NCBI RefSeq assembly: GCF_035083965.1
Contig: NC_089727.1
Coordinates: 6,329,501 to 6,393,500 of the forward strand
Direction of reading: 5' to 3'
DNA: 64,000 nt
Origin: Branchiostoma lanceolatum
Taxonomy: Eukaryota; Chordata; Leptocardii; Amphioxiformes; Branchiostomatidae
The notes beneath the pieces were generated by a model, which saw only the letters and a list, made by a program, of their open reading frames with translations, did not search any database and was not told where the DNA came from. Made by a program: the position numbers and the translations under genes. The stretch's first letter is position 1. Every line of letters begins with the position of its first letter. Positions 45,839 through 61,681 of the stretch are shown piece after piece.

Positions 45839-48800
45839 CTACTTGATGCCCTTTGCAGCCAGTTCCTCCTTCACTCTTGTCAAATACTGAGGATCAGGGT
45901 AGCCGTATCTGCAAAACAAGTGAAGACGAGTCTCAGGATATTACTGAGAGTTGGGGTGAATGGTCTGGCAGAGACACCGATAAAGCATAGCCTGGTATCC
46001 ATTCTATACTAGCTCTGGTTTGCTTCCTTTGCCAAACATACTAGTAGTCTAGCACCTGTTAATAGATAAACTATTGGCATTTGAATATTCACCTAAAATG
46101 AAGGTGAGAGTTCTGTCCTTGTAACGGTATGGAAACAGGGTAAGAACAAGCAATAAAAAGTTAAATCTCTGTTACACTGCTTCTGAGAAATATTTCACTA
46201 TTGCAGGACATAAGAACCAAATATTTCAGTGGGGACGGGGGACACACTTTTCTGTGAAAAAAAGTGATCAGAGGAGTGAGTCGAAACTAGAGTAGGATGC
46301 ATACCAGCTGCAGGCTAGATTAAGCAAGGACGTAGATTAACCCCTTCAGGGGGTTTTCTAGAAAAATTGAACAAGAGGGAGCACACAGGCGAGGGAGCGA
46401 ATTCTATGATTTATGGAAGAATCAATCGCTGAGTGAAGGCTGTATGCTGGATATTAAGCTAAAATCTGAATTCCACTATAGGGGGTGCTGCGCTGAAACA
46501 AGAGGGTGCAGCGCCCCTCTTTCCTGATTTAGATGAACCCCTGCCCTTAAACTTAAACAGTTTAAGAATCAAGGGTTAGAAAAGCAAAGAAATTTGTATA
46601 CCTGTTAGGACCGCCATACTTGCTGGTTTTGTGGTGGATGTCATTCCAGACCACAGTATCAGTCAGTCCTGTGGTCGCTGATGTGCCGATGGTGAAGACA
46701 AGACGGCTGTCAAAGGCTCGCTTTAAGAGTTGGAGCACCTCACGGCCCTCTGTGTTGTCCGGAAGGTAGGCTGTCCGTGATGTTCCAGTGTAGGGCTTCC
46801 CTGGGTTTGGATGCTCTGGCTGTAATGAAAATATCAAGACATGGCTCTATATACTCAGAGACTGATGTCAGTAAAATACAGCAACAGATAAAGCTATAAC
46901 AACAACAACAACAACAACTGTTTGTCTTGCCTAAAATAAAATCCATTGACTACAGTGTCTTTGAATGTTTAACCAGTGCAAATTTAGTGCTATGTGGTAT
47001 CCATAGGTCAAAACTGATATCAAACATTAGTTAAATCAACATACAAAAATGATTTAAAAGACTTCTTTGTAACATGATTTATTTTCAATTTTGATTTAAT
47101 TTGTAAATATGTCTTAACCCAAGACAATACCATTTGTGAGTCACCATAGAACATGTATGTTGACAAGTTGACAACACATACCCCTTGTATACCACTGTGG
47201 AAGTCATAGTGGATTTCAATCATTGAGTGGCCTCCATACCCTGGAAGGGAGTTTAGGTAGTCAGTGCGATCTGTCATTGTCCCATGGGGCTGGTTGCCTT
47301 TCAGTCGTCCGATGACAGATTTGCAGATGGGACACTGTCCGGAAAGCTTCAAGGCATTGTCCAGGCAGTCAGCACAGAACCTGTGCTTACAAGGTGTTGT
47401 TGTCACCGGCCCAGTGAAGTCAGAGAGGCAGATCGGGCACTCGTCCTCTTTGTCGGAGTTTCCAGATGCAGAGGAGGCTGAGGATGCCACTCCTGGTGAG
47501 GAGAATCGTGTCATGCTCTGACTTGTTGTAGGATGTGCTTGCTGGATGGCTGGAAGTGGCTGGCTTGTCTGGCTGGTCCCAGGATAAGTATGTGATGGGT
47601 CACCACTTTTAGAGGAGGTTGGAGAAGGATGTGGGTAGGTTGGTGTCGATGTTCCATGTGGGTAGGAAGAAGAACTTACCGCAGCAGCGTATGTCAAGGT
47701 TGGACCTGGGTAGGCTATGGAGCCCGATGCAGTGTGGCTAGTTGACCCATGTGGTGAACCGGGTGGATATTTTGGACTTATGTTTCCACTGCTGCTGTAC
47801 ATGTAGCCTGCTGCTCCACTGCTGCTGTCCTTTGCAATTTTTGCCTTAAAAGCATCACAAAAAGCCTTGACAGCTTCTCTGTCGTTGTCTACAAGCCTGA
47901 TATCGAGAAGACTGCTACCTGTGCCCCTTCCATTCTCTACAAAGTCCACAATGGCACTACACATAGCTTCTGCACATACTCTCCTGGGCATCCCAGATGC
48001 ACCTGAACTGATGGCTGGCATAGCAATGGACTTGGCATTCAACCTGGAGGCAGCTGTAGTGAGGGCTTTCAGACAAGTGTCATACAGTTCCTGTTTGCAG
48101 TTCCAGGCAGAACTTGATACAAAGGTTGGACCAACAGCATGAATAATGTACTTGCATGGAAGTCTCCCTGGTTTAGTCCAAACACAGTCTGTTGTCCTTG
48201 GGCTACCGTGTTTGATGATGTAGTTAGTACATTCTGACTGGATAGCTCTGCCTCCTGCTCTACTGATGGCTCCAGACACTCCTACTGCAAGCATCAGGGA
48301 GCAATTGGCCGCATTGACAATGACGTCAACATTCTGAGCGGTGATATCTCCCCTTGCTATATTTATATATACTCCTGTTGTCTTCTCCAAAAAGATGCTA
48401 GAACTACTAGTGCTAAGGTCGAACCAGCTTGGCTGTGCATTTGATGGTCCATTTACAGCAGATGAAGATGACGTATTGGAGGATGGGTTTCTTCGTCTTC
48501 TCCTTGACTCGGTTATGTCCAACAGACCACATATGGTTGCTCTTGCTGCACGAATCTCTTGCTCTTCACCGATGAAGGTAATCATTCCATCCACATTTTT
48601 GATGAATACAGACGGGTGAGAATCCTGAGCAAGTTTTACTGCATCTACACACTCTCCTGCCATGATATTATGCAAACAAGTGTCAAGAGATCTGGAGTCC
48701 AATTTACTGAACAGACTCTGGTACAAGGTGATGAAATCCTCTGATGCAGCTTTTGCATCCGTTTTGCTCCCTTTTATGCACGCTGTGCTGTTGTCTTTGC

Positions 48801-60100: not shown

Positions 60101-61681
60101 AAGGAAGGTAAATAACCCAAGTTCATGCACATAATTGTCATTTACATTCAAAACATATGTGTACATATTCATTTCTTCTTTTGTCGAAAGGTAGTATTTT
60201 GACAATAATGATGGTAGCGCTAAGTAGAGGGTCACTGCGTAGCTAGACGGCCCGGCGCCTAAATATACGACCTGTGCCAAGCAGATACATAAGTCACACA
60301 GCTATCATACACATAAGAAAAATAACTTCATAAAACACTAAAAATTTGCCGGGTCTTTAAGTGTTTGTTGAGAAGAAAACCGACCAAAGAAAAACAACGT
60401 AAACATTGCTGTCGTCTGACGACGTTGTTTTCCCGCCATTTTTTTGGGCCGCGATGGTGGCGGAACGATTCAACGCACAGTTTTGTTACGCGCTAACATG
60501 TGATTGGTACCGTCTATGAAAAGGAAACTGAATACAGAGATGGCGAAGATATTTCCCAATAAGTAGATGGAGTATTGTTGATGTAAGCGGTGTCGTTTTT
60601 TCGTAATGATTTCGTAAGTCGGGCCGCATTCAATACGTACGTCGGGCCGCGTGGTAGCCTATTTCCCGTGGAAACATGAGCTGGGATGCGCTAGATATAG
60701 CCCTTCTCACATGACGTGAGAAATGCACACAGTCAAAATTTTCCGGTCAAAAGAAAGCTATAATATAGCAGACTTCAAGCCTTATTTACATTTCCCTAAC
60801 TTCATCACCAACTTCCGAAGAGAGCAAAATTACCAAAGCGTAATAAGTTAGGCACACTATCTGGCGTAGCACTAAATCAGAAGGTACATTCGTGAAAATG
60901 TCTCACAGCGTCTTCCGCATGTAACGCGGAGCATGAAGGGCCCATGAACAGTATGAATACATTTCTTGTCCAAGTATGGTCTTCAGATGAATGTGTTCAA
61001 AATTTATTAATCAAAACATGACCATTCTCTGGCAACCAGCAATGGAGCGCCGTGAGTTCCAGCGCGTAAAAAAACGTCCGATGTTTGAGCACCCCCCGTT
61101 ACATGTATTTCAATAGGTAACTGGTGACTGCTTATTGAAATGTTTCCATGCTGCAGCCATATGGATTAGTTCCTTGATTTGCCTTCTTCAATAACAACAT
61201 TACAATGTACAATGTATTTTGAGTAAAGCATTTATGTGACAGTGCAATAGCCTGGAGTCCAGCCTTGTTAGCTTTGTTCTGCTTCCAATTGTTGGCAGAG
61301 TAGCAACCTGTAGGAGCATAAAAAAGCTAAGAAGGCTCAGTCTGAACTCCAGGCTAACAATGCGATAGTTATTGGTTGATTGACATCATGATTCTCCATT
61401 TATACCTACAGTTACACAGCGTGTTCTGGCTCGTAAACATGAGCTTAATGGACAAACACTTCATGTGAAGGTAGTCACCTCATCCCCTGCCGAAGCCACT
61501 CCTAACATGGACACTTCTGCTCCATCAAACATCACCATCCAAGTCTCAGGCTTCACATCCTGCCCAAATGAGGACATGGTGATGCTGTACTTTGAGAACA
61601 AGAAAAGGTCTGGGGGAGGAGACATCCAGGAGATCCAAGTCAGAGACAACAAAGTATTCATTGTCTTCAAGGATCCCTCAG
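54115..61681 (+). CDS. PARP14/DTX3L-type multi-RRM protein with long P/S/T/Q-rich exon, 3' end outside window
   Basis: Exons found: 54115-54286, 55249-55464, 56343-56432, 57026-59677, 61412-61681. Every junction is phase 1, giving about 1133 residues so far. RRM1: SVHVRGLPELSGLQDKVSGYF, AVVTFADETVAQNVL. An acidic stretch (residues 90-130) is followed by a 2652-nt exon. It encodes a proline-rich part (PPKIPPKPPKPTVPPKP) and about 350 residues of degenerate P/T/S/Q repeats. RRM2: VAVSGFTSAPDEELLGLYFE, RRSGGGEVEKI, IIIFKDP, VTQRVLARKHELNGQTLHV. RRM3: ITIQVSGFTSCPNEDMVMLYF, KRSGGGDIQEI, VFIVFKDPS. The LYFE...RSGGGEV signature is typical of PARP14, PARP10 and DTX3L N-terminal repeats. No macro or ADP-ribosyltransferase domain is in the window, so the exact family cannot be named. 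Divergent partner of the DTX-type ligase. Confidence 0.82.
54815..54920. repeat. Dispersed repeat shared with GST intron 10
   Basis: AACAATTCTGTAGTACAGTAG, GGAAATACATATTCGC and GGTGGAGAGATAAATAAAGCC line up with 21950-22030 (ACAATTTTGTAGCACAGTAG, GGAGGCGTATTTGC, GATAGAGAGGCCAC). It is an interspersed repeat without ORF in intron 1 of the PARP14-like gene. Confidence 0.55.
54965..55160. repeat. Dispersed repeat with GGACAGGTGGTCAC motif, also at 61737-61805
   Basis: AAGAAGACCACCTAGGGGAC and TTATGTGGACAGGTGGGCAC resemble AGAAGACCACTCAAGGGAC and CAATGTGGACAGGTGGTCAC at 61751-61802. The motif recurs within this copy at 55085-55145. Confidence 0.6.
56264..56302. repeat. (CA)n microsatellite
   Basis: About nineteen CA units followed by CATA units, in the intron before exon 56343-56432. 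Confidence 0.95.
56493..56990. repeat. Tandem duplication, unit about 249 bp, in intron 3 of the PARP14-like gene
   Basis: The two units share ACTAACTTGCAAATAATTTT, a TATGATATGATATGAT tract, GGCTTGCAGCTATAAC, AATGAATATTACAG and GAATATTCTTTTT(A/G)CAGG. Starts are about 56493 and 56742. Each unit ends with an acceptor-like TTTTTNCAGG. Confidence 0.8.
59996..61100. mobile_element. Probable DNA transposon with terminal inverted repeats, about 1.1 kb
   Basis: The left end AATGGGGGGCGCCCTAACATC is matched in inverse by the right end AACGGGGGGTGCTCAAACATC (read on the minus strand), with ACG following in both. A short ACATCGCACG word is repeated at the left. No transposase frame and no certain target-site duplication were seen. 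It lies between RRM2 and RRM3 exons. Confidence 0.55.

Follow-up and report, generated by a model that had tools for sequence, protein, structure and literature searches.

Is the pairing of a DTX3L-type ubiquitin ligase with a partner from the ADP-ribosylation system older than its control by interferon? PARP9, DTX3L and PARP14 are a current model for cooperation between ADP-ribosylation and ubiquitylation in antiviral defence, a system described as interferon-driven. Amphioxus is not known to have interferon, and with a comparable pair of genes in such an animal it could be asked whether a co-regulated module existed before interferon control. A candidate is found in 64,000 bp of DNA from the lancelet Branchiostoma lanceolatum (contig NC_089727.1, positions 6,329,501 to 6,393,500; 42.8% G+C, no N), hereafter the window, in which positions are counted from the first base. 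Here a gene for a DTX3L-like E3 ligase with a macrodomain lies head to head with a gene for a PARP14-like protein that begins with RRM domains. On balance we favour the view that the two form an ADP-ribose/ubiquitin module, in which a DTX3L-like ligase and a PARP14-like writer share a short CpG-rich divergent promoter and are partly derived from a PARP14-like ancestor.

Two spliced genes start head to head

The start codons lie on opposite strands, at 53638-53636 for the minus-strand gene and at 54115-54117 for the plus-strand gene, with 476 bp between them (53639-54114). The original prediction had given exactly this spacing and orientation and, with both gene models now spliced, the head-to-head pair is confirmed. 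The ligase gene (45839..53638, minus strand), modelled from splice contexts, translation and Pfam matches, has six exons (53638-53589, 51565-51381, 50798-50668, 50091-47182, 46819-46602 and 45908-45839). All five introns are GT-AG, and the spliced exons read without interruption through 1187 aa, up to a stop that ends at 45839. The weakest point of the model is exon 1, which is 50 bp long, inferred and without homology support. Among the eight donors in the stretch 51566-54600 that score above 4 on a donor scoring matrix and have an in-frame ATG within 400 nt, the donor at 53589 ranks first with 9.22, the next scoring 6.82. Use of a lower-scoring donor at 53785 (4.88) would move the start to 53834 and reduce the gap to 280 bp, with the geometry still head to head. 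Intron 1 contains, at 52379-53305, an element with inverted ends (GGGGTGGATACCGGTTCGGCT) that resembles a DNA-transposon insertion.

The first five exons of the PARP14-like gene (54115..61681, plus strand; 54115-54286, 55249-55464, 56343-56432, 57026-59677 and 61412-61681) were modelled from splice contexts and Pfam matches. The five GT donors and four AG acceptors are all in phase 1, and 1133 aa are encoded before the gene continues beyond the donor at 61681 and leaves the window. Exon 5 is followed at 62027-63638 by a fold-back element with arms of 521 bp (511 of 521 positions identical), and a further inverted match joins 62757-63126 to 63631-64000.

The ligase is DTX3L-like

The minus-strand gene had been read as encoding a RING-DTC ligase with a macrodomain, and this holds: Pfam gives the Deltex C-terminal domain (DTC), macro and RING domains, together with a PARP14-type RRM. 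The RRM (aa 29-107, exons 2 and 3, 50668..51565) has a phase-1 intron inside and matches PF23085 with 52.4 bits in the whole protein and 56.4 bits in a 162-aa piece. It is followed, at the place of the D2 (KHL1) region of human DTX3L, by a stretch in which no family was detected (aa 123-205, 49843..50091). Further along are a KH_DTX3L-like region (aa 523-639, 48541..48891; PF21718), the macrodomain (aa 698-872, 47842..48366; PF01661, 99.5 bits), a C3HC4 RING finger (aa 1006-1046, 47320..47442; PF13923, 46.7 bits) and the DTC (aa 1053-1186, exons 4-6, 45839..47301; PF18102, 201.2 bits).

The DTC of the ligase is nearest to that of DTX3L among the PDB matches listed (179.1 bits), and is identical to human DTX3L at 84 of 134 positions (63%), to DTX2 at 76 of 133 and to DTX1 at 72 of 133. 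Where the alignment has no gap and DTX1 and DTX2 have the same residue, 14 sites unite the ligase with DTX3L, 10 isolate DTX3L and 3 isolate the ligase; a two-residue insertion of DTX1/2 is missing from both the ligase and DTX3L. The comparison covered DTX1, DTX2 and DTX3L, and its result is a placement away from DTX1/DTX2; it is the RRM and the KH region that point to DTX3L. On these two features a plain DTX3 identity was set aside, the DTX3 sequence itself, like that of DTX4, standing outside the comparison.

Regions were compared with a provisional copy of the human DTX3L sequence. The KH region of the ligase aligns to its D3 with a z score of 7.2 (26 of 98 residues identical), compared with 1.1 for D4. 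The His of an IHHKT motif and the Glu of a VKEEL motif in the ligase align with the catalytic pair of DTX3L, which we take to be H707 and E733 by our own count on this copy. These two residues are given as catalytic in a study of DTX3L (PMC10810221).

The ligase shares with human DTX3L the N-terminal RRM, the RING, a DTC lacking the DTX1/2 insertion, and the catalytic His and Glu, to which a DTX3L-type KH region may be added on a marginal match. In contrast, it has 1187 aa rather than 740 aa, a long linker, a D2 undetectable by sequence, and a single KH_DTX3L stretch instead of two, with a macrodomain before the RING in the place of D4. The KHL4 domain of human DTX3L, which lies in D4, is reported by one study to contact PARP9 and PARP14 (PMC11080071), while another maps PARP14 binding to KH2-KH3 (PMC13224862), the KH portion that resembles the region retained in the ligase. 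The novel feature is a macrodomain built into the ligase at the site of the KH pair of human DTX3L for which binding to PARP9/PARP14 is reported. Since the D4 pair is absent and a macrodomain stands in its place, we name the protein DTX3L-like with a macrodomain, and not DTX3L. In its RRM-KH-macro order it also resembles human PARP14, from which it differs in ending with RING-DTC instead of WWE-ART.

A 73-aa piece encoded by exon 5 was also searched against other genomes. In public viral contigs it gave 91 pattern matches, of which none was confirmed as a Deltex relative. Bacterial and archaeal genomes gave 213 pattern matches and three tblastn relatives, over query residues 16-38. The two of these three that were inspected (L001 and L003) sit inside a long open reading frame (ORF) that by eye is membrane-transporter-like, and were therefore rejected as Deltex and taken to be chance matches.

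The macrodomain may read ADP-ribose

Against the PDB, phmmer places a PARP14 MD1-MD2 construct at the top (140.2 bits over two domains), followed by PARP14 MD1 (92.5), PARP9 (91.1), bacterial O-acetyl-ADP-ribose deacetylases (at most 87.7, this one being presumably YmdB), MACROD1 (71.4), MACROD2 (70.6) and macroH2A1.1 (68.3). Two more PARP14 macrodomains, which we take to be MD3 and MD2, score 66.3 and 54.4 bits respectively. The entry 3Q6Z was confirmed as PARP14 MD1, and the PARP9 chain was assigned to MD1 from its motifs.

Hydrolysis by macrodomains has been linked to an Asn/Ser and a Gly around loop 1 and, in loop 2, to a hydrophobic residue with an aromatic one directly after it (PMC10221186). 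In loop 1 the ligase retains NAAN and one Gly (LAVGVSG). Its loop 2 is AISSGASG, with Ala-Ser where the hydrophobic and aromatic residues are needed, and it departs here from the hydrolase pattern of PARP14/PARP9 MD1. Hydrolysis is accordingly predicted, from the sequence, to be lost or weak. With the hydrolysis-linked aromatic residue missing, the domain may be a reader of ADP-ribose and not an eraser, and a reader would suit a ligase working on ADP-ribosylated targets. The fusion would make the contribution of PARP9 directly testable: should the ligase read in cis, PARP9 could be viewed as a replacement acting in trans.

The partner is PARP14-like

The plus-strand gene had been called a PARP14/DTX3L-type RRM protein, in agreement with the two and a half PARP14-type RRMs found in it. 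Pfam gives RRM_PARP14_3 (PF23085, 98.9 bits) and RRM_PARP14_1 (PF23222, 79.9 bits), in three stretches each, and NID (42.5 bits). Taken singly, all three RRM units pass the PF23085 cut-off of 24 bits: RRM 1 (aa 6-84, 54130..55328) with 32.3 bits, and 36.5 bits for PF23222; RRM 2 (aa 994-1066, 59527..61479) with 53.8 bits; and the first half of RRM 3 (61531..61681), which ends at a phase-1 donor, with 31.7 bits. RRMs 1 and 2 each have a phase-1 intron inside. The sole PDB match at E<=1 is that of RRM 2 to the RRM of PARP10 (2dhx, 38.7 bits). Several N-terminal RRMs are also found in human PARP14, from which the gene differs in a low-complexity stretch of about 825 aa between RRM 1 and RRM 2 (825 aa at 57028..59502; P 17.5%, S 13.6%, T 10.8%). 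Within this Pro/Ser/Thr/Gln-rich stretch there is an internal repeat, 58207-58466 being 82% identical to 58402-58661.

Descriptions of human PARP9 give it a pair of macrodomains together with a KH-like and an ART domain, and no RRM figures in them (PMC13224862, PMC11080071). The RRMs therefore make the plus-strand gene PARP14-like and not PARP9-like and, as it begins with them, a PARP9 counterpart was ruled out. Most likely it makes a PARP14-type mono-ADP-ribosyltransferase, whose putative macro and ART domains, like the KH repeats and WWE of PARP14, would lie beyond the window.

A phase-1 intron lies at the same place in all four RRMs of the two genes, the second half of the domain being visible in three of them and one stopping at the donor. 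The shared place and phase argue that the two genes are related in part. Searching the window with a profile made from the four RRMs gave no additional copy with an E value below 0.33.

The intergenic stretch as a putative shared promoter

The putative promoter (53639..54114) has a GC content of 0.506, a ratio of observed to expected CpG of 0.89, one CCAAT (53844) and one GC-box motif, and no match to a TATA motif was found in its 476 bp. A short, CpG-rich gap with no TATA match is often seen in bidirectional promoters. Across 50000-58000, divided into sixteen 500-bp bins, the CpG ratio ranges from 0.18 to 0.84, with the maximum in the bin 53500-54000 that overlaps the gap.

Eighteen motifs were scanned in the gap, and the P values are given before correction; a sigma-70 scan has no meaning in animal DNA. 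For ISRE and GAS, with two patterns each, there is no match in the 476 bp, so that the link to interferon is an analogy and not evidence. A kappaB-type palindrome, GGGGATTCCCC (53801..53811), occurs nowhere else in the 64-kb window and provides two motif starts compared with 0.097 expected (P 0.009); a looser form of the motif has five starts in the window, counting these two. There are five IRF half sites compared with 1.6 expected (P 0.032). The 10-mer TGTGAAAAGT forms an inverted pair, at 53893-53902 (minus) and 54056-54065 (plus), which are its only two copies in the window and may be there by chance. The kappaB, IRF half-site and TGTGAAAAGT observations are leads only.

How the module might work and where it came from

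In the proposed mechanism the product of the plus-strand gene would write the ADP-ribose mark and the macrodomain of the ligase would bind targets that carry it. The RING would then recruit E2~ubiquitin and the DTC would position ADP-ribose, so that ubiquitin could be placed on ADP-ribose or on the target, while the RRM and KH-like parts of the ligase might contact nucleic acid or partner proteins. Beyond the gene models, domains, key DTC residues, geometry and shared intron, which are observed, it is shared use of the promoter, co-expression and this substrate logic that we infer.

Several observations weigh against the reading as a DTX3L-like and PARP14-like module with a common promoter. 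The KH_DTX3L match is marginal, with 23.1 bits in the full protein and 27.8 bits in a 161-aa piece at a cut-off of 27.4. The ligase RRM aligns weakly with that of human DTX3L, its z score of 3.0 barely exceeding the 2.2 obtained against the unrelated D3, and at the place of D2 there is neither a match to PF21717 (DTX3L_a-b) at E<=1 nor alignment similarity to human D2 in the provisional copy. As the second KH pair (D4) is absent, the human mode of complex formation is not simply transferable. The affiliation of the macrodomain with MD1 has a narrow margin, since bacterial deacetylases come near to PARP14 MD1 in score, and PARP14 MD1 itself is described as binding ADP-ribose rather weakly (PMC13224862), which weakens the idea of a reader. 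The part of the plus-strand gene inside the window has no match to macro, WWE or ART domains in Pfam at E up to 0.1. An elevated CpG ratio (0.70) is seen at 52500-53000 as well, within a repeat-like element, and the kappaB palindrome is one match among the eighteen motifs scanned. Finally, B. floridae is reported to have at least four PARP14-like genes clustered on one chromosome (PMC4245714, PMC13224862), and such clustering makes a neighbour from this family likely and an independent origin of the pair a real rival.

Human PARP9 and DTX3L are described as lying head to head at 3q21 on a bidirectional promoter responsive to interferon-gamma, with PARP14 and PARP15 nearby (PMC11251048, PMC11251020, PMC8424196). 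The likeness to this pair, on which the original prediction had turned, stands in part. The type of ligase, the head-to-head geometry with close starts and the CpG-rich gap agree, and the partner is kin to PARP14/PARP9. It is, however, PARP14-like by architecture, with RRMs first, and the ligase has an extra macrodomain and a single KH_DTX3L unit; nor does the gap have the ISRE/GAS matches looked for. Clustered PARP14-like genes are themselves a known feature of Branchiostoma (Perina et al, 2014, PMC4245714), in a paper whose main text contains no mention of deltex or DTX3L. No paper on an amphioxus DTX3L/PARP14 pair was among the matches listed from the open-licence PMC literature; the main text of a B. 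belcheri poly(I:C) RNA-seq paper does not mention PARP, DTX, Deltex or ADP-rib, and the available parts of PMC5787515, PMC8166818 and PMC11997328 have nothing on such a pair. In one survey no group deeper than sharks and rays is listed as having a DTX3L ortholog (PMC11594159); if the sequence is of lancelet origin, the ligase would put a DTX3L-like protein deeper than that.

A co-regulated module may have preceded interferon. In its full form the idea would be that an ancestral, pre-interferon PARP9-DTX3L module comprised a ligase reading in cis through a non-hydrolytic macrodomain and a divergent PARP14-like writer, and that NF-kappaB possibly controlled it. The ligase of vertebrates would then have lost its macrodomain, and PARP9, a shortened descendant of the divergent partner, would have taken over the task in trans, with PARP14 next door and interferon control added later. 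This longer history we regard as doubtful. PARP9 is regarded as a partial copy of PARP14 that arose in vertebrates (PMC13224862) and, if it did so beside DTX3L, an ancestral divergent DTX3L/PARP14-like pair would be a simple source of the human and the lancelet order alike. The family's clustering in lancelets offers an explanation that is just as simple and competes with such an ancestral pair.

The strongest competitor is indeed an independent origin, by shuffling within an expanded PARP14-like cluster in the lancelet lineage, in which case the likeness to the human pair would be convergent or a side effect of clustering and the mechanism could stay the same. To this we would give almost an even chance. 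Besides the B. floridae cluster, it is favoured by a partner that is PARP14-like and not PARP9-like, given that PARP9 is regarded as the later duplicate. None of the recognised flanking genes is known to be a neighbour at human 3q21, only one flank being visible in the window. On the other side, human DTX3L, PARP9 and PARP14 are described as sharing one locus (PMC13224862, PMC11251020, PMC11251048), so that both arrangements follow in few steps, through duplication, from a single ancestral neighbourhood of DTX3L and a PARP14-like gene. It is rather unlikely that the genes are ordinary divergent neighbours, with starts close by chance, separate promoters and no joint role. Both belong to one functional family and have the RRM and its intron structure in common. 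If one assumes some 28,000 genes in all and no more than about 50 of the PARP14 family, a random divergent partner would belong to this family in less than about 0.2% of cases, a figure that local clustering of the family raises. Divergent pairing as such is ordinary, as more than 10% of human genes are reported to be in divergent pairs (PMC12672016), but the identity of the partner is not.

That the plus-strand gene is not an ART, being RRM-only, PARP10-like or broken by the fold-back element at 62027-63638, seems slightly less probable still than a chance pairing of neighbours. RRMs alone are visible in it, its single PDB match is to PARP10 and a large repeat follows its last visible donor; set against this, frames and splice sites are intact across five exons and every RRM unit passes PF23085 by itself. 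An artefact, through a wrong exon 1 of the ligase or misassembly of the stretch, appears very improbable. A near-identical tandem copy of 4.2 kb touches the 3' part of the ligase gene and exon 1 is short and unmatched by homology, but the repeat (to 47797) stops short of the 5' ends, the best donor and the CpG-rich context back exon 1, and the next candidate there still leaves the genes head to head.

Flanking genes and repeats

The two tandem copies (39333-43560 and 43570-47797) are 4,228 bp long and differ by 11 mismatches, 10 of them within 43333-43483. The copy fuses the first part of a C2-domain gene, out of frame, to the RING-DTC tail of the ligase, and is either a recent duplication or an assembly artefact. 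Of nine neighbouring ORFs scanned with Pfam, one fell below the cut-off, three had no match and five were above it: leucine-rich repeats (LRR; 7397-10138, plus), a cytidylyltransferase-like domain (12204-12851, minus), a GST C-terminal domain (23592-23939, plus), the C2 domain (39135-39629, minus) and a long LINE-like reverse transcriptase ORF (35276-37177, minus; 125.8 bits). By eye we take the cytidylyltransferase to be PCYT2-like and pieces at 1865-4173, one of which was scanned and had no Pfam match, to be TTC29-like. At 20717-21303 a near-tandem repeat of 224 bp (20777-21000 and 21000-21221, 91% identical) encodes YLVS-type repeats in plus-strand frames.

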